Shown here in pieces: positions 6,505-33,612 of a stretch of 33,613 nucleotides of DNA. Within the stretch, counting starts at the first letter, position 1; each line of letters starts with the position of its first letter. The notes under the pieces are model-generated. The model had not been told where the DNA came from. It was given only the letters and a program-made list of their open reading frames with translations, and searched no databases. Position numbers and translations under genes: made by a program. Origin of the DNA: Elusimicrobiota bacterium (GTDB lineage Bacteria > Elusimicrobiota > Elusimicrobia > Elusimicrobiales > UBA9959); assembly GCA_029267355.1 (NCBI GenBank), contig JAJUJA010000011.1, positions 1-33,613 on the forward strand. Direction: 5' to 3'.

Positions 6505-7527
6505 TCAAAATCCCGCCTGTTGAGGGTATTCACAATAGAAAATTTTATCTCCTGGTATGAAAACGGAAGTGCCGTCCCTGTCGGTTCTGAAAACCCTCGC
6601 GCCGATATTTTCCAGTCTGCCCAGCGTAGCGTCGGAAGGATGGCCGTAGCTGTTTTTCCCTACGGAAATATAGGCAAGCTTTGGAGAAACATAGGAGAGA
6701 AATTTTTCGGAAGAGGAAGTGGAGCTTCCGTGATGGCCGACTTTAAGGACATCGGAACGCAATTCATCCCTGTATTTATCGGCTATCAAATTTTCAGTTT
6801 CCCCCTGAGCATCGCCCATAAAAAGCATGGAAACATTCTGATAAGTCATTTTCATAACTATGGAACAGTTATTGAGGATCTCCCCCTGAGAAGTCTGACT
6901 TTCCTGACTGCAGGAGTTAAGTATCTTAACTTTAACCCCCTCAGCCCAGTCAAGTTCCTGTCCTTCAACCGGATAAAAGATATTTATGCCGGGCTCCGCC
7001 GCGGCTGTATCTCTGAATTTTTTAAGCGTGGAAGAAGAGGGGTTATTCACTTTTGTATCGTAGAAATTGGAAACGGAAAGATTATCAAAGACATATTGAA
7101 GCCCTTTAAAATGATCTGTATGCGGATGTGTCAAAACCACATAATCTATGGAGGAAATATTATGTCCGGTTAAAAACTTGGCGAGATTTGACGAGGCGGA
7201 AGAGGATGGCCCGCCGTCTATGAGAACTGTTTTGCAATTGGGCAAAACAATAAACTCGCTGTCGCCCTGTCCGACATTTATGAAAGTTACTGAAAACTCG
7301 CAGGCGCCGCGTTGAGTTTGCGAAGAATTATCGCTTTCATAGTAGGGGACGGGCAGGGTCTCCTTTTGTGAATTATCAAAAATGGAAAAATAATTTGAAA
7401 ATTTACCGTCAAAATCAGGCAGTTCCTTAATTTCCAGGGAGAAAACAGGCAAGGAAGATAAAAAAAACAATTGCACAAAAAGGACTGAAAGTGAAAGACG
7501 GACTTTTATTTTTGAGGGAATAAACAT
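6505..7527 (-). CDS. Secreted metallo-beta-lactamase-fold hydrolase, ComEC/Rec2 C-terminal-like
   Basis: FINVGQGDSEFIVLPNCKTVLIDGG...VLTHPHTDHFKGL...KVGHHGSSTSSS...ISVGKNSYGHPS; hydrophobic N-terminal signal. Confidence 0.85.
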   Translation of the reverse strand: MFIPSKIKVRLSLSVLFVQLFFLSSLPVFSLEIKELPDFDGKFSNYFSIFDNSQKETLPVPYYESDNSSQTQRGACEFSVTFINVGQGDSEFIVLPNCKTVLIDGGPSSSASSNLAKFLTGHNISSIDYVVLTHPHTDHFKGLQYVFDNLSVSNFYDTKVNNPSSSTLKKFRDTAAAEPGINIFYPVEGQELDWAEGVKVKILNSCSQESQTSQGEILNNCSIVMKMTYQNVSMLFMGDAQGETENLIADKYRDELRSDVLKVGHHGSSTSSSEKFLSYVSPKLAYISVGKNSYGHPSDATLGRLENIGARVFRTDRDGTSVFIPGDKIFYCEYPQQAGF

Positions 7528-7639
7528 ATCCACCTCCGCTCTCCTTTAAGCTGCCTTACCTTGGTGACTTCGGATTAAGGTCCGAAGGTGGATGCTCCCC
7601 GGCCAATCCCGGGGATTACAAGGAACAAAAATAACCTAA

Positions 7640-10890: not shown

Positions 10891-12294
10891 TTATTTCCCT
10901 ACGGCTTCAAGAATGACTTTGTCAGGTTTTTGGCTTTCAAAAACGCCTTCCCATTTGGCGATAACGGCCGTGGCAAGGCAGTTTCCTATGACATTTACGG
11001 AAGTTCTGGCCATATCCATCAGCTCATCTATGCCTAGTATTATGAATATGGGCTCAACGGGAAGATTGAAAGAAGCGGCCGTGCCGAGCAGTATCACAAG
11101 AGTGGCGCGCGGGACTCCGGCCACGCCTTTGCTTGTAAGCATAAGAGTAAAGACCATGGCCATTTGCTGGGCAAAACTCATATGCACGCCGGCAGCCTGA
11201 GCGACAAAAACGGAAGCCAGAGAAAGATACAGCGTGCTGCCGTCCAAATTGAAGCTGTAGCCTGTGGGCATAACAAAGGCCACAACCGGCCTCGGCACCC
11301 CTATAGCTTCCATGGCTTCCATAGCCCTTGGAAGAGCGGCCTCTGAACTTGTGGTGGCAAAAGCTATTGATACAGGTTCAATTATGGCCTTAAGAAATTT
11401 AATGACAGGAATCCCGGCAATTAAAGCTATAGGCAGCAGCACGAACAGCAAAAAGAAGGCAAGCGCGGCATAAAGAGTGGCCAGCAGCTTAAAAAGATTC
11501 AAAAGTATGCCGAGCCCCATATGCCCCACAGTATAAGCCATTGCCGCCCCTACGCCCACCGGGGCGAAATACATGACTATATTTGTGAATTTGAACATTA
11601 CTTCAGCCAGACCTGAACAAAGCTCAAGCATATTCTTTTTCTTTTCCTGCGGCAAAAGAGCCAGCGCTATGGCGAAAAGTATGCTGAAAACAACTATTTG
11701 AAGTATCTCCCCTTCAGCAACAGATTTGGCGATATTTTCCGGGAAAACATGCATTATTATCTCAGAGAGTGTCTGCTTCTTTACAGGATGCTCCGAAACG
11801 GCATGGTTTGAAACCTCGGGCAGCGAAATGCCCACGCCGGCTTTTGTCAAATTTATGGCGCCAAGCCCTATAAAAAGCGCCAGCGTTGTCACCACCTCAA
11901 AATATATCAGGGCCTTTATTCCCATCCTGCCGACCTGTTTAAGGCTTGAATGACCCGCTATTCCCGTCACAAGCGTGGCAAAGATCAGAGGCGCTATTAT
12001 GGTTTTTATCAGTCTCAAAAAGATCATGCTGATAATGCGCATATGCCCTGAAATGCCCGGAAAATCAAGGCCCGTCTCTAATCCTGCCGCCATAGCCACA
12101 AATATCCATGTCGTGAGAGAGCGCTTAAGCGCGGCAAACCATACAAGAGAAGCTATAAGAAGCCATCTGGATAAGGGAAGAAGCCATGCCGGCATTTCAA
12201 AACTGGTATATTTTGAAATTACAAAGAGAGCCGAAGCCGCAAAGGCAAAAAAAGCGGCAAACACAAGCGGTTTTGTTTTATTTTCCCTTTTCAT
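10891..12294 (-). CDS. Dicarboxylate/amino acid:cation (Na+ or H+) symporter, DAACS family
   Basis: LIKTIIAPLIFATLVTGIAGH...AFATTSSEAALPRAMEAME...PTGYSFNLDGSTLYLS...GVPRATLVIL. Confidence 0.92.
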   Translation of the reverse strand: MKRENKTKPLVFAAFFAFAASALFVISKYTSFEMPAWLLPLSRWLLIASLVWFAALKRSLTTWIFVAMAAGLETGLDFPGISGHMRIISMIFLRLIKTIIAPLIFATLVTGIAGHSSLKQVGRMGIKALIYFEVVTTLALFIGLGAINLTKAGVGISLPEVSNHAVSEHPVKKQTLSEIIMHVFPENIAKSVAEGEILQIVVFSILFAIALALLPQEKKKNMLELCSGLAEVMFKFTNIVMYFAPVGVGAAMAYTVGHMGLGILLNLFKLLATLYAALAFFLLFVLLPIALIAGIPVIKFLKAIIEPVSIAFATTSSEAALPRAMEAMEAIGVPRPVVAFVMPTGYSFNLDGSTLYLSLASVFVAQAAGVHMSFAQQMAMVFTLMLTSKGVAGVPRATLVILLGTAASFNLPVEPIFIILGIDELMDMARTSVNVIGNCLATAVIAKWEGVFESQKPDKVILEAVGK

Positions 12295-16832: not shown

Positions 16833-17351
16833 TTAGAGGCTGATTCTTTTGCCCGCTTTGATAAAAATATTTCCCGTAACATGGTGAATGGTTTTCGGCT
16901 CCCTGACGGAAAGGTCGCAATGAGCTTTTACGGCTTTTAACACGAAAAAATCATATTTTTTAGACATTTTGGAATCATGAACTTTGCACTCTATGCAGGC
17001 ATAGCATTCATCTATAAGCGGAGCTTTGACTTGAGAGGCCTCAACAGAAGTAAGTCCGGTTTTAAGAAATTTATCAGTCTTATATCCGCTCACTTTGCCG
17101 GCAAATAGCGATTGCTTTGCTATTTTGACTGTAGGGATATTTATAACGGCCTCTTTTGTTTCAAGCAGGGCTTTATGCGTAAAACTGTCTGAGCCGATAA
17201 CCACTCCTATCAATGGCGGGTCAAAATCCAGCATAGTATGCCAGCTCACGGGCATAAAATTATTCCTGCCTTTGTAAAAGGTGGAAACAAGTATCACCGG
17301 CCCTGATTGAAGGAGTGAATTGACCTTGTTCAATGGAAATATTTTTTTCAT
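16833..17351 (-). CDS. Flavin reductase-like (FMN-binding) domain protein
   Basis: VILVSTFYKGRNNFMPVSWHTMLDFDPPLIGVVIGSDSFTHKALLETKEAVINIP; SD GGAGGCAAAATG. Confidence 0.88.
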   Translation of the reverse strand: MKKIFPLNKVNSLLQSGPVILVSTFYKGRNNFMPVSWHTMLDFDPPLIGVVIGSDSFTHKALLETKEAVINIPTVKIAKQSLFAGKVSGYKTDKFLKTGLTSVEASQVKAPLIDECYACIECKVHDSKMSKKYDFFVLKAVKAHCDLSVREPKTIHHVTGNIFIKAGKRISL

Positions 17352-17363
17352 TTTGCCTCCAAA

Positions 17364-17397
17364 TACAATGCCTCCGCTTTGATGCGGAGGCATTGTA
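17364..17397. promoter_or_regulatory. Perfect 14-bp hairpin between aclA and the flavin reductase gene (terminator/attenuator-like)
   Basis: TACAATGCCTCCGC-TTTGAT-GCGGAGGCATTGTA. Confidence 0.7.
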
Positions 17398-17405
17398 ACA
17401 AAACA

Positions 17406-19232
17406 TTACAGGTCTGTCATATAAGCTATTTCATCGTAAGGGGTCCTGTAAAGCGGCTGCTTAAGTCTCTTCTGGTCAAATATATGGCCGAATATGCCTA
17501 TGGATCTGGCCACGACGAAAAGCGCGTTCAGGCAGCCGAGATTCACTATGTCGTCAATTTCCTTCTTTGAAAATCCGCAGCTGTTAAGCATATCCACAAA
17601 GCATATGCCTATGCAGCCGTCAACATTGAGTATGAGATTTCCTTTCTTGGCTGTCGTAAGTTTTTCAACTTCCAAAGCATAATCGAGCAGGGCCGTATTT
17701 TTGAAATGCTTTTTGCAGAAGGCCTTAAGCTGAGTTACGCGCATATCCGGATTTGTCACACTTTTCACTCTGTGGCCTATGCCGGGTATCGGTATTCCCC
17801 TGCTTTTCATTTCTTTTATGAACTGCTCCGGCTTGAGACCGCTTTCATGGGCTCTTTTGAATTCCTGAGCCGCGCCGTCTATGGCTCCGCCGAATCTCGG
17901 GCCTATAGTCAAAAGGCCTGAAACAAGCGATGAGATTATGTCTTTGCCTGCTCTGGCCGCGACTATGGCATTATGCGCGCCGCTTACTGCCGGGCCATGA
18001 TCCGCCGTGAGGATTATTGATGTTTCCAGAAATTTTCTGGCATAAGAAGGAAGCTCTTTTTTAAACCACAAAAGGCCGATAACCCCGCCTATACCCATTT
18101 CGCTCTCTATTATTCTGGATATCGGTATGTTTCTGTATTCAAGCTCCTCTTTTTTTTCATTTGAAATCGTTGTTATGAAAGTGGTTGATTTTCTTATTTT
18201 CCCTTCTTTCAGCGCCTGATTGAAGTCCATAGGCAGAGACGGGGCTTCAACCTCTTCAGCCGGTTTTATAATTCCTTTTTTAACAAGATTCTTGTATGTT
18301 TCGTTTATTTTCATGCCGTAATCGTCAAATGAATCTGGAACTATGGCGCCGGCTTCTTTCAAAGCCCTGTTCTTTGCGTCGGCAGTTTCCAGCTCGCTGC
18401 CGGCCTTGGCGCCTGCATGACCGAATTGCACGCCGGCAGGAAACATTTTGGAACAGGTGCCTGTCACCCATATTACAAGCGGCTTTCTGATTTTTTTTGA
18501 TTTGAGCGCGTCAACTATTTTCAGTTCTTCAGTGCCGCCTATCTCGCCGAGAGCGACTATCATCTTGACCTGAGGTATGGCTTCGTAGCGAAGTATATGA
18601 TCTAAAAGAGTGGAGCCCGGATAAGCATCACCGCCTATCGCTATGCCTTCATAAAGGCCGTCGGTGTTTCTGGCTATGATGTTGTAGCATTCATTGGACA
18701 AGCCGCCGGATTTTGATACAAAGCCGACGCTGCCGGGGCGATGAAGCTTTGACTCTATTATGTTCTCATAAGTGCCTGCGGTATTTCCTATCTTGAAACA
18801 GCCGGCTTTTATTCCTCCGACCGTGGCAGGACCTATGACTATTTTGTCCAGTTTTTTGGCCGTTGCCGCTATTATTCTTGCCCTTCTTTCGGGCACGCCT
18901 TCAGCTATGACAGCCGCTGTTTTTATATTGGGGTGATTCAGTGCCTCCATAGTTGACTCAAAAGCGCTTCTGAAGGAAGCGAAATTGAGCATTACATCGG
19001 CTTCAGGGTGATTTTCGGCGGCCGAGGCAAAATCCCTGTATATAGGTATAAGTATTTCGCCTTTTCCGAAAAAAGCCTTATGCCAGCCGTCAGAACCGGG
19101 ATTTACTATCGCCGCCACAGAAGGCTTTTTTCTTGAACAGGCAAAATCAAAATCAAGCATTCTCTGTATGGCGTTCACATGGTAGCCGTAAATTATGGCC
19201 TGAGTATCTTTTGAAAATATTTCAGGTTTCAT
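17406..19232 (-). CDS. aclA: ATP-citrate lyase alpha subunit (with citryl-CoA lyase/citrate synthase-like C-terminus)
   Basis: QFGHAGAKAGSE (phospho-His region), CoA-ligase fold, C-terminal citrate synthase-like ILTADHGPAVSGAHNAIVAARAG...IPGIGHRVKS. Confidence 0.95.
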   Translation of the reverse strand: MKPEIFSKDTQAIIYGYHVNAIQRMLDFDFACSRKKPSVAAIVNPGSDGWHKAFFGKGEILIPIYRDFASAAENHPEADVMLNFASFRSAFESTMEALNHPNIKTAAVIAEGVPERRARIIAATAKKLDKIVIGPATVGGIKAGCFKIGNTAGTYENIIESKLHRPGSVGFVSKSGGLSNECYNIIARNTDGLYEGIAIGGDAYPGSTLLDHILRYEAIPQVKMIVALGEIGGTEELKIVDALKSKKIRKPLVIWVTGTCSKMFPAGVQFGHAGAKAGSELETADAKNRALKEAGAIVPDSFDDYGMKINETYKNLVKKGIIKPAEEVEAPSLPMDFNQALKEGKIRKSTTFITTISNEKKEELEYRNIPISRIIESEMGIGGVIGLLWFKKELPSYARKFLETSIILTADHGPAVSGAHNAIVAARAGKDIISSLVSGLLTIGPRFGGAIDGAAQEFKRAHESGLKPEQFIKEMKSRGIPIPGIGHRVKSVTNPDMRVTQLKAFCKKHFKNTALLDYALEVEKLTTAKKGNLILNVDGCIGICFVDMLNSCGFSKKEIDDIVNLGCLNALFVVARSIGIFGHIFDQKRLKQPLYRTPYDEIAYMTDL

Positions 19233-20530
19233 TTTTCCCCTCCGGTTTTAGCGGTTTTTTTTACATTGGATTTTTCCTTTAATGCCATGGAAACGACAGC
19301 CGTCATATGAGTTTCAGGGCCGTAAACCTCTATCGGCACGCCGAGAGTTTCGCCGAGTTTTCTCATATTGGCCAGGCCCTCCTTGTAATTCGGGCCGCCT
19401 CTTCTGACAAATATCCTGACTTTATTTTCTATAAGTTTGCTTTTATACTCGGTCAAGGCCTTTATTATACCCTTAAATGTTTTAGCCACATCAGTAAAGT
19501 TTGCTATACCGCCGCCTATTATGAGAATTTTGCCGCGGGGGTCTTTTTTTCTGGTCATAAGGTCTAGTATGGTTTTAGCATACTGATAAGTGTCCTCGGT
19601 GGACGGGTCGCCTGAATATTCGCCGTAATTTGCCAGCTCCTTTGAAAAGCCGAGGTCGCAAACAGTATCGGCGTATATAACTGAAGCTCCGCCGCCGGCC
19701 ACCATATTCCAGATTCTGCCTTCAGGATTGAGTATCGTAAGCTTCAGGCTGGCGCCGGTCTTTTCGTCAATAGAGCGTATGAACATTTCCTCTTTTGTGT
19801 AATGCTGGCCGAAAGATGAAGGGAATTCCAGCTCGCCCCATATTTTGCCGCATTCAAAGGCCGCTGTGTCGTCAAGTCTGGCCACCAGATCAAGCGGCAC
19901 TATGTCCGAACCGGAAAAAGTGAAGGGATTTATCTCAAGATAAGTGAAATGTCCCTTCACATATACCTTATGCAAAGCCCTGACAAAGTTTTCTATTTCC
20001 TTTTTCCTGTCTCCAACAGCCGGCATATTAAGCTCAATTTCATCTATGGAAGAAAGCACGGGGACATTTGTTTCTTTGACTCTCTCCCAGTTCTCTTCAA
20101 CGTAAATTCCGCCTTTATCTGAAAGGTAAATCGTATCGTATTCGCGATATGATCTTATCGCAACATAAAACTCCTCGTCCTCTTTATGGGGAGTGAACGG
20201 CTCTATGAGAAAATCTTTAAGTTCTCCTGTTGTTTTGCCTACCGTGACAGTCTTGTTCATTCTCTCGGCTATCCACTTCTGCGCAGTTTTCCAGTCGGCA
20301 TTGAGACAGATAAGCCCGTGCTTGCCTCTCTTTCCAAAAAGCTGATCCGGTTTAACAACCAGTCTCTCTTTTTCAAGCCATGGATTTTCTTTTGCAAGTT
20401 TTTTCAAATCTGTATCGGGTCTGACCAGGGCAAGTTTTGCGGATCTTCCCTTGAAGGAAGCAATAAACTCGCTAAGGCCGTCAAAAAGTATCTTTTTGCC
20501 TTCGTATTCTCTTATTCCCTTTTGAGCCAT
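19229..20530 (-). CDS. aclB: ATP-citrate lyase beta subunit (ATP-grasp)
   Basis: Full-length similarity to ACL N-terminal half: IREYEGKKIL...YLEINPFTF...RIWNMVAGGGASVIYADTVCDLG...GGIANFTDVAKTFKGI; 4-bp ATGA overlap with aclA. Confidence 0.93.
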   Translation of the reverse strand: MAQKGIREYEGKKILFDGLSEFIASFKGRSAKLALVRPDTDLKKLAKENPWLEKERLVVKPDQLFGKRGKHGLICLNADWKTAQKWIAERMNKTVTVGKTTGELKDFLIEPFTPHKEDEEFYVAIRSYREYDTIYLSDKGGIYVEENWERVKETNVPVLSSIDEIELNMPAVGDRKKEIENFVRALHKVYVKGHFTYLEINPFTFSGSDIVPLDLVARLDDTAAFECGKIWGELEFPSSFGQHYTKEEMFIRSIDEKTGASLKLTILNPEGRIWNMVAGGGASVIYADTVCDLGFSKELANYGEYSGDPSTEDTYQYAKTILDLMTRKKDPRGKILIIGGGIANFTDVAKTFKGIIKALTEYKSKLIENKVRIFVRRGGPNYKEGLANMRKLGETLGVPIEVYGPETHMTAVVSMALKEKSNVKKTAKTGGEK

Positions 20531-20547
20531 AATTTCCCCTTTAAAAC

Positions 20548-20572
20548 GGGCGTCCCGATGGACGGGACGCCC
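20548..20572. terminator. Intergenic hairpin between icd and aclB
   Basis: Perfect 10-bp stem GGGCGTCCCG-ATGGA-CGGGACGCCC. Confidence 0.6.
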
Positions 20573-20587
20573 TGAATAAAGAACATT

Positions 20588-21799
20588 TTATTTAACAGCA
20601 GCGCCGAGCCTGTCAGCGACCTTGTCTATGAAGCTCTCTGTGGTTTCATAGCCTTTAGGCGCAGGATTGCAGAGAGGAACGAGATCCTTTGTCACTATGC
20701 CTTCCTCTATACAGTCCAGAACCGCTTTTTCAAGAGCTTCGCCGAACCTGACAACATCCGGGGTTTTATCAAGTTCGCCTCGTTTCTTCAAGGCGCCTGT
20801 CCAGGCGAATATTGAAGCCACCGAATTGGTGCTTGTCTTGTTTCCTTTGAGATGCTCGTAGTAATGTCTTCTGACAGTGCCGTGAGCGGCCTCATACTCA
20901 AACTTGCCGTCCGGGCTTACAAGAACTGATGTCATCATGCCCAGACTGCCGAAACCGGCGGCTATCATATCTGAGAAAACATCTCCATCATAGTTTCTCA
21001 TGGCCCACAGTATTCCGCCTTCATGCTTCATAATCTGAGCCACGGCGTCGTCTATAAGCAGGAAACGGTAACTTATGCCGGCCTTATCCATTTCATTTTT
21101 ATGGGCAAGAACTTCTTCATTAAATATGTCCTTGAATCTCGCATGGTATTTTTTGCTGATGGTATCCTTGCAGGCAAACCACAAATCAACTTTTTCCGAA
21201 ATGGCATAATTTATACAGGCCTGAGCGAAGGAATGTATTGATTTGTCTGTATTGTGCATACCCATTATGACGCCCGGGCCGTTGAATTTATTTATCGTTG
21301 CCCTTATCTCGGCGCTGCCGTCATCCGGGGTGAACAATATCTCAGCCTTGCCGGGTCTGTCTGCTATAACTTCCATTGACTTATAAAGGTCGCCGTAAGC
21401 GTGCCTGCCCACAGTTATCGGCTTTTTCCAGCTTCTAACGGCAGGCGTTATATTTTTGACTATTATCGGCTTTCTGAAAACAGTGCCGTCAAGTATGCTT
21501 CTTATGGTGCCGTTGGGAGAAGGCCAGGCTTTTTTGAGTTTATACTCGGTTATTCTCTCGGCATCGGGAGTTATAGTGGCGCATTTGACGCCTACACCGT
21601 ATTCCTTTATGGCATTGGCGGCATCCACTGTTATTTTATCGTCAGTTTCGTCTCTCTTGGGCAGGCCGAGATCATAATACTTCAGGTCTATGTCTAAATG
21701 AGGCAGTATAAGTTTGTCCTTTATCATCTGCCATATTATGCGCGTCATTTCATCGCCGTCCATTTCAACTAACGGCGTTTTTACTCTTATTTTAGGCAT
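20588..21799 (-). CDS. icd: NADP-dependent isocitrate dehydrogenase, eukaryote-like homodimeric type
   Basis: [23 protein letters not shown]...[18 protein letters not shown]...[27 protein letters not shown]...[12 protein letters not shown]. Confidence 0.96.
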
Positions 21800-23736
21800 T
21801 TATCCTCCTTGGTCGTGTGGTTCAACAATCCCCCGGCTATTAGTATGTTCGTCTGCCTGGGGGATAGAGAGCAGAGGGCTTCTATCGTTTCGCCGCTTCT
21901 TTCATTAAGAAGCTTCACAGTTTCGCCCTTTTCAAAGGTTTCCTTCCACGCCCTGCATGTCAATTTATCGCCGGGCTTTATTTTTTCAATATCGGAAGGA
22001 TTTTTGAAAACTAAAGGCGCTATGCCGAAATTTATCAGATTGGCCGAGTGTATTCTCTCAAATGACTTGGCCAATACGGCTTTAACGCCGAGATACATCG
22101 GACACATGGCAGCATGTTCGCGGCTGGACCCCTGTCCGTATGACTCGCCGGCTACTATTACATTGTGTCCGCCTGCCGACTTGTTATCAAGGCATTTTTT
22201 ATAGAATTGCGGGTCTATGTTTTCAAAAACATACTGGGCATATTTGGGCACATTGGATCGGTATTTAAGCCTGGCGCCTGCCGGCATTATATGGTCTGTT
22301 GTGATTTTATCGCCGAGAACTATCTGAACGGCGCCGTTTAAGGATTCAGGCATAGGGCCGTTTTTAGGCGGTTCGCCTATATTTGGGCCTCTGAAAATCT
22401 CCGTTGATTTAAGAGCCGGCGAAGGCTTAATGAACATTGAATCGTCTATTAAGAATGAAGAAGGCTCTTTTATCTGCGGATAATCAATTCCCGATTTTGA
22501 AGGCGATGTTATTTTGCCTGTTATAGCCGCCAAAGCTGCCATTTCCGGGCTTACAAGATAAACCTGAGCGTCAGCCGTGCCGCTTCTGGCCTCAAAATTT
22601 CTGTTTGAAGTTCTCAGAGAAACGCCGCCGCTTTTTGGAGAAAAATGATTTCCTATGCAGAAGCCGCAGGCGCTTTCCAGAATTCTGGCGCCGCTGTCAA
22701 GCAAATCAGCCAAAGCTCCTTTTCTGGCCATCATTTGAAGCACCTGTCTTGAGCCGGGAGCTATGCCGAGGCTTACCGTGTCTGACACCTTCCTGCCTTT
22801 AAGTATTGCGGCAACTGTAAGCATATCCCTGAGGGAAGAATTGGTGCAGGACCCTATGCAGACCTGGTCCACGCTGATGCCTTCCAGCTCCGATATCTTC
22901 TTTATATTTCCCGGACTGTGCGGGCAGGCCGCCAAAGGTTCCAAAGAGGACAAGTCCACATCTATAACTCTGTCATATTTCGCGCCCTTATCCGCCTTAA
23001 GCTCAACCCAGTCATTTTCTCTTCCCTGTGCTTTGAGGAATTTTTTTGTCACTGAATCCGAAGGGAATACCGAGCATGTCACTCCCATTTCGGCGCCCAT
23101 ATTGGCTATGGTAGCCCTCTGCGGCACCGAAAGAGTTTTAACTCCCGGCCCGCCGTATTCAAGCATAACCCCTACATTGCCTTTTGTAGTAAGTATGGAA
23201 AGCATATGAAGGACTATATCCTTGGCGGTAACCCATGGTTTAAGTTCGCCGGTAAGATTCACAAGATAGACTTTCGGATAGGTGAGATAAAAAAGTCCGC
23301 CGCCCATGGCGACTGCCACATCAAGTCCGCCGGCGCCTATGGCTATCTGGCCTATGCCGCCGCCTGTGGGCGTATGGCTGTCTGAACCGAGCAAAGTGGT
23401 GCCCGGTTTGCCGAAACGTTCAAGATGAACCTGATGGCAAATGCCGTTGCCGGGCCTCGAATAAACTATTCCGTATTTGGCTGCGACGGTTTGAAGGTAT
23501 TTATGATCGTCTGAATTTTCAAAACCGACCTGCACGGTATTATGGTCAACATATGAAACTGAAATGTCGGTTTTTATCTCCTTAAGCCCCATTGCCTCAA
23601 ATTGAAGATAAGCCATGGTTCCGGTGGCGTCCTGTGTAAGTGTCTGGGCTATTCTTATGCCTACTTCGCTTCCCTTGACCGGCTGGCCTTCTCTTATATG
23701 GGAAGAAAGTATTTTTTCAACTATATTCTGTTTCAT
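21787..23736 (-). CDS. acn: Aconitate hydratase, Aquifex-type/AcnA-like
   Basis: [56 protein letters not shown]. 649 aa; overlaps icd by 13 bp. Confidence 0.95.
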
Positions 23737-23914
23737 TTTACCTCCTGATACGCGAGAATCTTTTCAGAATTGTTTTTATTATGATTTGAGATAAAGAGTT
23801 ATAGCACATAGAAGCTCTAAAAAAGGGGCATGATCCGTTAAAATCCGGATATTTCAGATATTAATTTACCAAATACTTAATCAACTGTCAAAAGCGCCCG
23901 TCAATAAAGGTAAA

Positions 23915-23943
23915 TAAAAAAGCCCGCCTGAAGCGGGCTTTTA
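23915..23943 (-). terminator. Rho-independent terminator of argF
   Basis: Stem AGCCCGC-CTGAA-GCGGGCT with a T-run on the minus-strand 3' side. Confidence 0.85.
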
Positions 23944-29607: not shown

Positions 29608-30990
29608 ATGAAAAAACAAATGGTATTGCTGCTGCCGCTTTTATGCTCTTTCTCTTTCGCCTTTGAAGGCGAGATATCAAGAATAAACAAGGAGAGCATC
29701 AGAGAAATGTCCGGCTCTCTGCCGACGCCGAAATTTCAAGAGAGCAGGGCTTTACAGAAAGAACTGACCATAATGATTTTTATGAACGGCAAGAACAATC
29801 TTGCCGATTATGTCCTTAAAGACATAAATGAAATGGAAGTTTACGGCCCAAGACAGGATATGAACATAGTTGTTCAGGCAGGCAGGATAAACTATACGCC
29901 TTCCTATCCCGGCGGCGATTATGACCCTTATGATCCCTATGATCCTTATCCATGGGGCGGGCCCGGTATACATCCTCACTGGCCCCCTTTGCCTCCCTAT
30001 CTCAATAAAAACTCTACTGAAACAGCTTCCTCATCCGGTATTTCATCATTTACCGGAGTAAAAAGATTCCTGATAACCAAGGATGACAATACAAATTCCA
30101 TAGGGTCAAAAGAACTTGAAACGCTGGCAAAATCCGATATGGGGGACCCGCAGGAGCTGGTAAATTTTGCGCTTTGGGCAAAGAAAAATTTTCCGGCCAA
30201 GAAGTATATGCTGATGGTCTGGAATCACGGCGATGGCTGGAAAAGGAAAAACATTATGCCTGACCTTGTTAAAGGCATTTCTTCTGATGACGAAACAGGA
30301 AATGAAATTTCAACCCCTGAATTGGGACAGGCTCTTTCCAAAATAGGAAAACTGGACATCTACGCTTCAGACGCCTGTCTTATGCAGATGATGGAAGTTG
30401 TCTATGAACTTAAGGACTCGGTGCCCGTCATAATCGGCTCGGAAGAAACCGAGCCCGGCGACGGCTGGGCTTATGATTATTTTCTGAAAAAACTTCACGC
30501 CATGCCTTCTCTTGAACCGCAGGCTGTGGCTAAAGCCGCGGTTGAAGCCTATGGAGAATATTATGCTCAGAAAGGGAAAGGCGTGACTCAATCGGCCGTC
30601 AAGACTGCAAAAATAGATGAACTCAGATATAAACTTGACCTGTGGGCTGATGCCGCCATGAAAACAGGCGACAGGGAGAAATTAAAAGCCGCTCTCAATA
30701 AATCTCTCGGTTTTGAGGCTTCGGGCTCCAGAGACCTTCTGGATTTCATAAAAACAGCCTCCCAGGATTTGCAAAATCAGACATTGATTGCTTATGCTTC
30801 AGACATAGAGAACTTCATTAAGAATTCCATATTGATAAAGAATATCTATGTAACCGAATCCTATAAAAATGCCAACGGCCTAGCGATTTACTTGCCCACA
30901 TACTCATACGACAATAAATATGACGGGCTTAAATTTGCTCAAACAGGCATCTGGGATGATTTTCTCAAATGGCTTTATCAGCAAAATTAG
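29608..30990 (+). CDS. Secreted clostripain-family (C11) cysteine protease
   Basis: Signal peptide; MIFMNGKNNLADYVLKDINEME; catalytic MLMVWNHGDGW and YASDACLMQMMEVVYEL; SD AAGGAGG. Confidence 0.9.
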   Translation: MKKQMVLLLPLLCSFSFAFEGEISRINKESIREMSGSLPTPKFQESRALQKELTIMIFMNGKNNLADYVLKDINEMEVYGPRQDMNIVVQAGRINYTPSYPGGDYDPYDPYDPYPWGGPGIHPHWPPLPPYLNKNSTETASSSGISSFTGVKRFLITKDDNTNSIGSKELETLAKSDMGDPQELVNFALWAKKNFPAKKYMLMVWNHGDGWKRKNIMPDLVKGISSDDETGNEISTPELGQALSKIGKLDIYASDACLMQMMEVVYELKDSVPVIIGSEETEPGDGWAYDYFLKKLHAMPSLEPQAVAKAAVEAYGEYYAQKGKGVTQSAVKTAKIDELRYKLDLWADAAMKTGDREKLKAALNKSLGFEASGSRDLLDFIKTASQDLQNQTLIAYASDIENFIKNSILIKNIYVTESYKNANGLAIYLPTYSYDNKYDGLKFAQTGIWDDFLKWLYQQN

Positions 30991-33257
30991 CTGATTTCCG
31001 CCTTGAGAATTTTAAAGTAGAGCTGGCCGGCCGATATGCCGCCGTCGTTTGAAGGAAGTTTTGAATTGAAGTAAACTTTAAGGCCTCTGCGTTTTAACTC
31101 TTCTGCCAAAAATAAAGACAGTTTTCTGTTCTGGAAGCAACCCCCGGAACAGCAGACTGTTTTTATTTTTTTGATTTTTGCCTCAAGAGCGCAAACCTCT
31201 GCAATACCGCGGGCAAAACCTTTGTGAAATTTGTATGCCGCTATAGCTGGAGATAGTTTTTGTTTTTTATCGGCAATCGCCTGCTTAAGTGCAATAGAAA
31301 AATCAAGCCTCGGTATTTGGCCGTCATTAAATGGAATAAAATCGTATGGTGAGGCCTTATGATTGTTCAGAGATATGGACTCAAGCTCCATAGGCAATTG
31401 CGCCTCATAAGTGGCGTATTTTTTGCCGAGTATAAGGCAGGCAAAAGCATCAAAAAGGCGGCCGGCTGACGAGGTTAAAGGCGAATTGAAATTATTTTCA
31501 ATCATTTTCCTCATGGCCTTCTCTTCATCTATGGGGATATTCATAATCCTCAAATCTGCGCCGGCGGTCAAAGCCATTGAGAAAAGGACTCTGTAGGGTT
31601 TGAAAGCGCAAATTTCGCCTCCCGGAAGGCGAAATTCCCGCAGAGAAGCAAATCTTCTAACGCGCCCGTTTTCATAAGCAAAAAGCTCGCAGCCCCAGAT
31701 TTTTCCGTCAAGGCCATAGCCGGTACCGTCTAAAACTATGCCTATGCATTTTTCATCAATCCCATACTCGGCCATAACGGAAAAGAAATGAGCTATATGA
31801 TGCTGAACATAATACGGCTTGAAGCCGAGCTCACTCGTCAAATAAGACGACCTGTACAAAGGATGCATATCGCAGACCGCAGAAGCAGGCCTGCTTGAAA
31901 GCATTCTGGAAGTCTTTTTATATGTTTCAATAAAAAAATCTGCATTCAAAGAGTCATCCAAATCGCCTATGTATTGAGAGACAAAAAGCTCATCGCCTCT
32001 TGTAAATGCGAAAGAGTTTTTTATATCCCCCCCTGCGGCGAAGGTATCTTCTTTGGGTTTTACAGGAAGTTTAATCAGCTCCGGGACATATCCTCTAGCG
32101 CGCCTTATTATTCTTTCCTGCGAATAATCGTCAATATAAATCAAACTATCGTCTATTCTGTTATGAATCGGCCTGTTATGCAAAAGCAAAGGGCCAAGAC
32201 TTGAAAATAACTCAATCGCTCTCTCATTATCTTTTGTTATCGGTTCATCCCTGAAATTGCCTGATGTCATTATCAGCGGATTTTTGAATTTTTTGTTTCT
32301 TAAATCTTTAAAAAGCGCAAGATGCAGGGGAGTATAGGCGGCCATAACGCCCAAAGTGTCCAGATTTGGAGCGGCATACTTGAAATAAGAAATATCTTTT
32401 TTTTTCAAGGCGACTATGGGAGCTCTTGGAGAAAGTAAAATTTGTTTTTCTTTTAACGAGATATGAAGATATTTACCAAGTTCTTCAATGCTGTCTGACA
32501 TTATTGCAAACGGCTTAAAAGGCCTGTCCTTAAATTTTCTAAGTTTCTCAACAGCTTTTTTATTGAAAGGGTCGCAGGCCAGATGAAAACCGCCCAGGCC
32601 CTTAATAGCGACGATATGACCTGAAATTAAAAAATCTGCGGCTCTGCTTAAGGCAAACTCTTTTTCAGCTATTTTTTTACCTTTGTGTATAAGGAAAATT
32701 TGCGGTCCGCAAACAGGGCAGGCATTGGGCTGTGCGTGAAAGCGCCTGTCGGCTGGCTCTTCATATTCTTTGAGACAATCAGGGCACATCTTAAATTCTT
32801 TCATTGACGTAAACGGCCTGTCATAGGGAAGTTTTTCCACTATTGTAAATCTTGGTCCGCAGTCTGTACAATTGGTGAAAGGATATAAATATCTCCTGTT
32901 AAGCGGATTGGCAATATCTTCGGCGCAAGCAGGACAAACAGCTAAATCAGCCGGAACATTTGCGCTGGCCAGACTGCTTTCAGAGCTTTTCTTTATTGAA
33001 AAATCTGAAAAATTTTCAGCCGGTGCAGGCCTCACTGTGAACGAAGTTATTCTTGAAGCCGCAGGCGCTTCCTTTTTAAGGCTGTCTATGAATTTTCTCA
33101 TGTCATTTTTTCCGCCGCAGGCCTTTATAAGAACTCCGCCTGAATTATTCAAAACGAAGCCTTTTATCTTGTGCTTCAAGGCCATACGCCATACGAAAGG
33201 TCTGAAACCCACGCCCTGAACAGTACCAGAAATCACTATTTCTTTATTTACCGGCAT
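30987..33257 (-). CDS. hypF: Carbamoyltransferase HypF ([NiFe]-hydrogenase maturation)
   Basis: Acylphosphatase SGTVQGVGFRPFVWRMA; two CxxC zinc-finger pairs; YrdC-like region; YVQHHIAHFFSVMAE Kae1-like domain. Confidence 0.96.
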   Translation of the reverse strand: MPVNKEIVISGTVQGVGFRPFVWRMALKHKIKGFVLNNSGGVLIKACGGKNDMRKFIDSLKKEAPAASRITSFTVRPAPAENFSDFSIKKSSESSLASANVPADLAVCPACAEDIANPLNRRYLYPFTNCTDCGPRFTIVEKLPYDRPFTSMKEFKMCPDCLKEYEEPADRRFHAQPNACPVCGPQIFLIHKGKKIAEKEFALSRAADFLISGHIVAIKGLGGFHLACDPFNKKAVEKLRKFKDRPFKPFAIMSDSIEELGKYLHISLKEKQILLSPRAPIVALKKKDISYFKYAAPNLDTLGVMAAYTPLHLALFKDLRNKKFKNPLIMTSGNFRDEPITKDNERAIELFSSLGPLLLHNRPIHNRIDDSLIYIDDYSQERIIRRARGYVPELIKLPVKPKEDTFAAGGDIKNSFAFTRGDELFVSQYIGDLDDSLNADFFIETYKKTSRMLSSRPASAVCDMHPLYRSSYLTSELGFKPYYVQHHIAHFFSVMAEYGIDEKCIGIVLDGTGYGLDGKIWGCELFAYENGRVRRFASLREFRLPGGEICAFKPYRVLFSMALTAGADLRIMNIPIDEEKAMRKMIENNFNSPLTSSAGRLFDAFACLILGKKYATYEAQLPMELESISLNNHKASPYDFIPFNDGQIPRLDFSIALKQAIADKKQKLSPAIAAYKFHKGFARGIAEVCALEAKIKKIKTVCCSGGCFQNRKLSLFLAEELKRRGLKVYFNSKLPSNDGGISAGQLYFKILKAEIS

Positions 33258-33612
33258 TGTATTTTGAATAGTCCAGCTCGCTTCCAAAAAGACTGTGAGG
33301 TATAAGATAAACGATGAAAGTCACGGCAAAAGCCGCATTAACGGCAAATTTTGCTTTTCTGCCTTTGACAATACAATAAAGAGGCCATAGCCAGAAGAGA
33401 AACATAATTAAAGTTTTATTATCGGTAAGATCGTGTCCGAAAGGAAATCCAGTCCAGAATTCGCCGAAGGCATAATACTGCGTGAGCGGACCTAAAAACA
33501 TTCCCCCGGCCAGAAGGAAAAAGAAGTTTAGGAATATCTCTTTTTTTGAAATAATGCCGCGAATATTTGCAGATAGAAAAATTTTCACACTGTAAAGCAT
33601 AAACAAAAACAT
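33244..33612 (-). CDS. Hypothetical integral membrane protein, truncated by the window end
   Basis: Several hydrophobic segments (FFFLLAGGMFLGPLTQYYAFGEF..., TLIMFLFWLWPLYCIV); overlaps the hypF start by 14 bp. Confidence 0.55.
   Translation of the reverse strand: MFLFMLYSVKIFLSANIRGIISKKEIFLNFFFLLAGGMFLGPLTQYYAFGEFWTGFPFGHDLTDNKTLIMFLFWLWPLYCIVKGRKAKFAVNAAFAVTFIVYLIPHSLFGSELDYSKYNAGK

Follow-up and report, generated by a model that had tools for sequence, protein, structure and literature searches.

An acn-icd-aclB-aclA cassette in Elusimicrobiota and a possible citrate-forming role for its ATP-citrate lyase

In most of the organisms in which it has been studied, ATP-citrate lyase (ACL) is a citrate cleaver, and in metagenomics its genes widely serve to mark reductive-TCA autotrophy. 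Operation towards citrate is also on record. ACL has been described as fully reversible (PMC12137691), Desulfobacter postgatei runs it oxidatively, making ATP (PMC12743299), and for ANME-1/2c it has been proposed to work in the ATP-forming direction for 2-oxoglutarate (PMC9012536). Elusimicrobiota have been named among the MAGs with rTCA-related genes, ACL modules included (PMC13014828); in the openly accessible literature we found no account of an acn-icd-aclBA cassette in this phylum. Here we describe such a cassette in a stretch of 33,613 nt (the window, analysed at its whole length), which is contig 96 of an Elusimicrobiota MAG of 1.93 Mb and 93.8% completeness. The nearest named relative of this MAG is an Elusimicrobium sp. 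MAG, isolate SulCav_AS07-7 (AclA 92%).

Gene content and layout of the locus

The cassette consists of four consecutive minus-strand genes (Table 1). The calls made for them in the earlier note (acn, icd, aclB and aclA) agree with the open reading frames and with the Pfam and NCBIfam matches, and the ORF coordinates bear out the overlaps it gave, 13 bp for acn/icd and 4 bp (ATGA) for aclB/aclA. Each of the two overlaps holds an AGGAGG/GGAGGGG-like ribosome site, while icd and aclB are spaced by 57 bp.

Table 1. Features of the window discussed in the text
Feature	Position	Strand	Remarks
acn	21787-23736	minus	649 aa; monomeric aconitate hydratase, citrate <-> isocitrate
icd	20588-21799	minus	403 aa; homodimeric eukaryote-like NADP-isocitrate dehydrogenase
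aclB	19229-20530	minus	433 aa; ATP-citrate lyase ATP-grasp/citrate-binding subunit
aclA	17406-19232	minus	608 aa; ATP-citrate lyase CoA-ligase + citrate-synthase-homology subunit
Intrinsic-terminator-like hairpin after argF	23918-23942	minus	11-bp stem + T-run; -16.8 kcal/mol, z -4.7
Promoter-like site TTGACA-17-TAAATT upstream of acn	23863-23891	minus	called purely from its match to the consensus; 17 such sites in the region against 13.9 expected, close to chance
10-bp hairpin between icd and aclB	20548-20572	minus	predicted fold of the 57-nt gap
Flavin reductase gene	16833-17393		12 bp after aclA
Putative dicarboxylate or glutamate symporter gene	10891-12294	minus	DctA/GltP family; scores under the cut-offs of all named models
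2dG-II purine riboswitch	7556-7626	minus	Rfam RF03165, 85 bits
Gene of secreted MBL-fold ComEC-like protein	6505-7533	minus
HypF gene	30987-33287	minus	hydrogenase maturation carbamoyltransferase, 731 bits

Domain matches of all four predicted proteins lie far above chance. Acn combines PF00330 with PF00694 and scores 912 bits with NF005558 (cut-off 612) and 837 bits with TIGR01342 (cut-off 719). Icd passes the cut-offs of both NF006156 (643 bits) and TIGR00127 (552 bits, cut-off 397), consistent with the eukaryote-like NADP-dependent enzyme proposed previously; its closest solved chain is 1zor. AclB carries ATP-grasp and citrate-binding domains (PF16114, 304 bits; PF24948, 259 bits), and AclA carries CoA-binding (PF02629), CoA-ligase (PF00549) and citrate-synthase-homology (PF00285) domains. 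AclA residues H272, H412, R498, D538 and R576 are the equivalents of human ACLY H760, H900, R986, D1026 and R1065; H760, kept in AclA as H272, is the phospho-histidine of the human enzyme, and the roles of H760, H900, D1026 and R1065 are treated in PMC10115795. Judged by these domains and catalytic residues, the pair is a two-subunit ATP-citrate lyase. The alternative assignment, succinyl-CoA synthetase plus citrate synthase, was rejected, the scores being far below the respective cut-offs (125 vs 336 and 61 vs 376 bits); a separate SucCD is encoded elsewhere in the genome, away from the ACL locus. Taken by their assignments, the four genes jointly encode the linear segment acetyl-CoA + oxaloacetate <-> citrate <-> isocitrate <-> 2-oxoglutarate + CO2.

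The closest solved ACL is that of Methanothrix (6hxi), with 884 bits for AclA and 551 bits for AclB (the latter against 6hxi_A). Human ACLY gives 792 and 441 bits, respectively, and 6hxj, which we take to be the Chlorobium ACL, only 430 and 167 bits. By these scores the window enzyme is of the Methanothrix/eukaryote type, and the Chlorobium type was ruled out. The parallel with Chlorobi and Aquificae drawn in the earlier note is thus weak.

The four genes are probably co-transcribed. The nearest relative, G109, has them in the same order, and there too argF lies upstream of the operon. In the window genome argF was ruled out as an operon member by the terminator-like and promoter-like sites between it and acn. 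The flavin reductase gene was likewise rejected, as it is not kept downstream in G109, in which an epimerase-like gene follows aclA. A search with Rfam found no element at the operon. For the icd-aclB gap the predicted fold has -28.7 kcal/mol (z -5.3), which no shuffle equalled. Long stems are also present in the icd-aclB gaps of G109, G140 and G101, conserved in position with sequences unlike one another; the shorter gap of G082 (18 nt) is without such a stem. This hairpin is possibly a processing or partial attenuation site.

Two other features of the window are of separate interest. The 2dG-II riboswitch lies just upstream of the ComEC-like gene; a nuclease-like protein may thus be expressed under nucleoside control. 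HypF hints that other parts of the genome encode a [NiFe] hydrogenase.

Central metabolism of the host and the direction of the ACL reaction

Homologues of the oxidoreductases that the earlier note had proposed looking for in the rest of the genome were all found. They comprise PFOR (TIGR02176, 1808 bits), a KorA homologue (TIGR03710, 635 bits) whose KorAB pair is divergent from sucCD, and SdhCAB, a fumarate reductase/succinate dehydrogenase (NF005749, 1139 bits; NF005746, 408 bits). Sequence assigns KorAB to the 2-oxoacid subfamily only, and context makes 2-oxoglutarate its probable substrate. The host genome also encodes a VorB-like complex, ATP-PEPCK and malic enzyme.

Absences were scored as no match to a named family in targeted searches. 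AclA is the sole PF00285 match in the host genome, and apart from it this search, which the earlier note had also suggested, revealed no Si-citrate synthase. There is no PF00682 protein, and hence neither Re-citrate synthase nor pyruvate carboxylase. Besides ACL, no enzyme that forms or cleaves citrate was found in the genome. Incompleteness of the MAG is an unlikely cause of the missing citrate synthase, since 34 of the 35 ACL genomes of the phylum are also without it. The searches returned no Ldh_1-type malate dehydrogenase (PF02866; Ldh_2-type enzymes and malate:quinone oxidoreductase fall outside this family), no class I fumarase (PF05683; non-canonical fumarases fall outside it), no FumC/AspA-like protein (class II fumarase; E. 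coli FumC query, E<=1e-10) and no PEP carboxylase. Within the enzyme families searched, the absence of malate dehydrogenase, fumarase and FumC/AspA-like proteins leaves the oxaloacetate-malate-fumarate link apparently open both ways. With citrate synthase, PEP carboxylase and pyruvate carboxylase missing as well, a closed reductive TCA cycle is not supported by the gene content.

These absences favour citrate formation by ACL. With neither a second citrate synthase nor a closed C4 branch in evidence, it is most economical to see in the operon a linear biosynthetic module leading from acetyl-CoA and oxaloacetate to 2-oxoglutarate, in which ACL would be the sole citrate synthase and would form ATP; we judge the chances of this reading to be a little better than even. 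We infer the direction of flux, the formation of ATP and the sources of both substrates as follows. PFOR would supply acetyl-CoA and ATP-PEPCK would supply oxaloacetate; ACL would condense the two to citrate, phosphorylating ADP; aconitase and NADP-IDH would then turn citrate into 2-oxoglutarate and NADPH. The 2-oxoglutarate would enter the synthesis of the glutamate family or be passed on to the 2-oxoacid:ferredoxin oxidoreductase and SucCD.

The earlier note had seen in the same genes the citrate-cleaving arm of a reductive TCA cycle. In such a cycle or branch Icd would carboxylate 2-oxoglutarate and ACL would split citrate at the cost of ATP, with fixation of CO2. PFOR, the 2-oxoacid:ferredoxin oxidoreductase with SucCD, SdhCAB/Frd and ACL are all present, so that reductive 2-oxoglutarate synthesis would be possible and the cassette could extend this branch to acetyl-CoA. 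KorA (the alpha subunit of the 2-oxoacid:ferredoxin oxidoreductase) and SdhA are, in addition, nearly universal in the family, even in genomes that have neither ACL nor citrate synthase, which speaks for the reductive arm and counters the citrate-forming reading. However, in the absence of an Ldh_1 malate dehydrogenase, fumarases of the kinds searched for, PEP carboxylase and pyruvate carboxylase, oxaloacetate could not return to fumarate via the usual steps, and the ACL is not of the Chlorobium type. Although three oxidoreductase steps were found, we consider a reductive arm unlikely.

The reversibility of ACL (PMC12137691), together with the formation of citryl-CoA from products by a mutant human ACLY (PMC10115795), also agrees with a third reading, in which ACL, Acn and Icd would work near equilibrium in both directions, to 2-oxoglutarate in biosynthesis and to acetyl-CoA and oxaloacetate under glutamate or 2-oxoglutarate excess. 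The window does contain a gene for a DctA/GltP-family carrier (Table 1), but the match to DctA/GltP models is below cut-off; we regard a bidirectional module as distinctly unlikely. Finally, ACL might scavenge external or internal citrate and convert it to acetyl-CoA for lipids, as in the eukaryotic cytosol and as suggested, with citrate uptake, for ACL-bearing groundwater MAGs (PMC13014828). Eukaryotes do share this ACL type, but tight coupling to acn and IDH would be unneeded in such a role, no citrate transporter was identified within the window and PFOR already provides acetyl-CoA. Citrate scavenging thus appears very improbable.

ACL, citrate synthase and the cassette in other genomes

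The reading of ACL as a citrate-forming enzyme is further supported by near-exclusion of ACL and citrate synthase in the family, and by the apparent loss of acn together with aclBA in one relative. In the family set of 59 genomes ACL is present in 29, of which 28 are without Si-citrate synthase; the latter was found in nine family genomes (the G134 copy is a fragment). Both enzymes occur only in G143, a genome with 7% contamination and two aclA copies. Phylum-wide, 35 genomes have ACL and about 90 others a Si-citrate synthase match, with G143 again the only one having both. Fisher p-values for the exclusion are 0.026 (family) and 2e-4 (phylum), and are descriptive, the genomes being related. 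PF02866 malate dehydrogenase was found in 7 of the 9 citrate synthase genomes and in 1 of the 29 ACL genomes (G143), plus G110, and it adjoins citrate synthase in G133, G137, G144 and G150. When Re-citrate synthase was searched for in the ACL genomes of the family, the PF00682 proteins obtained were either partially matching ones of ~600-900 aa or a single protein of 345 aa.

Close acn and icd homologues were checked in 24 genomes and occur only with ACL or citrate synthase, with the exception of one truncated acn remnant. Four genomes without either enzyme (G106, G107, G108 and G110) have no close acn/icd homologues, and in G113, G121 and G156 there are merely aconitase-family proteins of 36-38% identity. 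The remnant (213 aa; L186, G118:C84, 1974-2612) belongs to G118, which is 100% complete and has no ACL, icd or citrate synthase. Behind it, on the other strand, comes a dUTPase-like gene; since a gene of this kind likewise stands next to the intact acn in G138, the acn-icd-aclBA module has apparently been lost at this locus.

A different arrangement was observed in another Elusimicrobiota genome (L185, G176:C27, 1238-4500), where SucC-like, SucD-like and citryl-CoA-lyase-like ORFs are consecutive and resemble a split citryl-CoA synthetase/lyase; Si-citrate synthase is encoded elsewhere.

Named genomes were scanned for AclA, which gave 80 loci. The order acn-icd-aclB-aclA recurs in Thermoplasmatota, Bathyarchaeota, other Euryarchaeota and delta-proteobacterial/Myxococcota MAGs; in a Thermoflexus MAG the cassette genes are near each other and not contiguous. 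Loci without the window-type icd often have another IDH nearby (monomeric, NAD-IDH-like, or a third type), the monomeric one matching TIGR00178 with 1234 bits. In several Elusimicrobia, aclA and the monomeric idh are convergent, which makes the latter a neighbour and not an operon member. Overall, acn and aclBA recur with four IDH types, with at least nine type changes on the AclA tree (43 typed loci).

The main Elusimicrobiota AclA sequences form one group (SH-aLRT 91). The AclA of G115 (L055), from the same family, groups with that of Thermoplasmatales L085 (support 100), and both loci have an NAD-type IDH, which makes cross-domain transfer of a whole cassette, in a second version, likely for G115; argG lies downstream of it. 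Distances of AclB, Acn and Icd follow those of AclA (Mantel r 0.93, 0.88 and 0.95, respectively), and in the trees of Icd and Acn the window falls beside the same relatives. The suggestion of a transferable cassette is thus strengthened both by the common gene order across domains and by the position of the G115 AclA. Some of the cassette genomes outside Elusimicrobiota also have Si-citrate synthase, and the role of the cassette may differ there.

A euryarchaeal MAG that has an ACL cassette also encodes, after a SucC-like gene, a 718-aa fusion of a SucD-like and a full citrate-synthase-like protein (L181, G361:C102, 1032-3185). Five other genomes encode proteins of 715-718 aa that have this domain match.

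Implications and comparison with described systems

An ATP-forming ACL is already known from Desulfobacter and proposed for ANME. As far as the literature searched shows, what is new is that the cassette spans domains and has interchangeable IDHs, that ACL and citrate synthase almost exclude each other, and that the cycle looks broken in an ACL-bearing genome. We tentatively extend these observations to a wider proposal, whose chances we put at somewhat under even: acn, one of four IDH types and aclBA of the eukaryote/Methanothrix type would constitute a cross-domain operon family in which ACL serves non-autotrophs as an ATP-yielding citrate synthase for 2-oxoglutarate, and this ACL type would be a misleading rTCA marker in Elusimicrobiota, Thermoplasmatota and Bathyarchaeota. 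Should ACL make citrate in this genome, the autotrophy assigned to many uncultured bacteria and archaea would have to be reconsidered, and an ATP-conserving way into glutamate synthesis would be common, beyond Desulfobacter, where it is shown, and ANME, where it is proposed. The cassette, with its interchangeable IDHs, offers a clean test system for a citrate-forming ACL.

Among characterized enzymes, the heteromeric ACL of Methanothrix (Methanosaeta; PDB 6hxi, 6znw) resembles that of the window in its two subunits, equal architecture and preserved catalytic residues. However, the gene that comes after aclB-aclA at Methanothrix loci codes for another kind of aconitase-like protein (33-36% identity), and no IDH was found beside it. 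Human ACLY is of the same enzyme type and shares the five active-site residue equivalents, but is one fused chain with a cytosolic lipogenic role. Chlorobium-type AclAB of the rTCA cycle (6hxj) is also a two-subunit ACL, but is far more distant in sequence, and its rTCA context with malate dehydrogenase and fumarase was not found in the window genome.

With respect to pathway, Endomicrobiaceae belong to the same phylum and arrive at the same end product, 2-oxoglutarate, but use Re-citrate synthase (PMC11257099), whereas the window genome has no PF00682 protein. The oxidative TCA cycle of Desulfobacter postgatei is a closed, acetate-oxidising one coupled with sulfate, while no closed cycle was detected in the window genome; the two are alike in the proposed direction of ACL, with citrate and ATP formed. 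ANME-1/2c are archaea, and their likeness is one of proposed pathway: in their partial oxidative TCA route, too, ACL, aconitase and IDH make up a biosynthetic sequence in which ACL is proposed to form ATP (PMC9012536).
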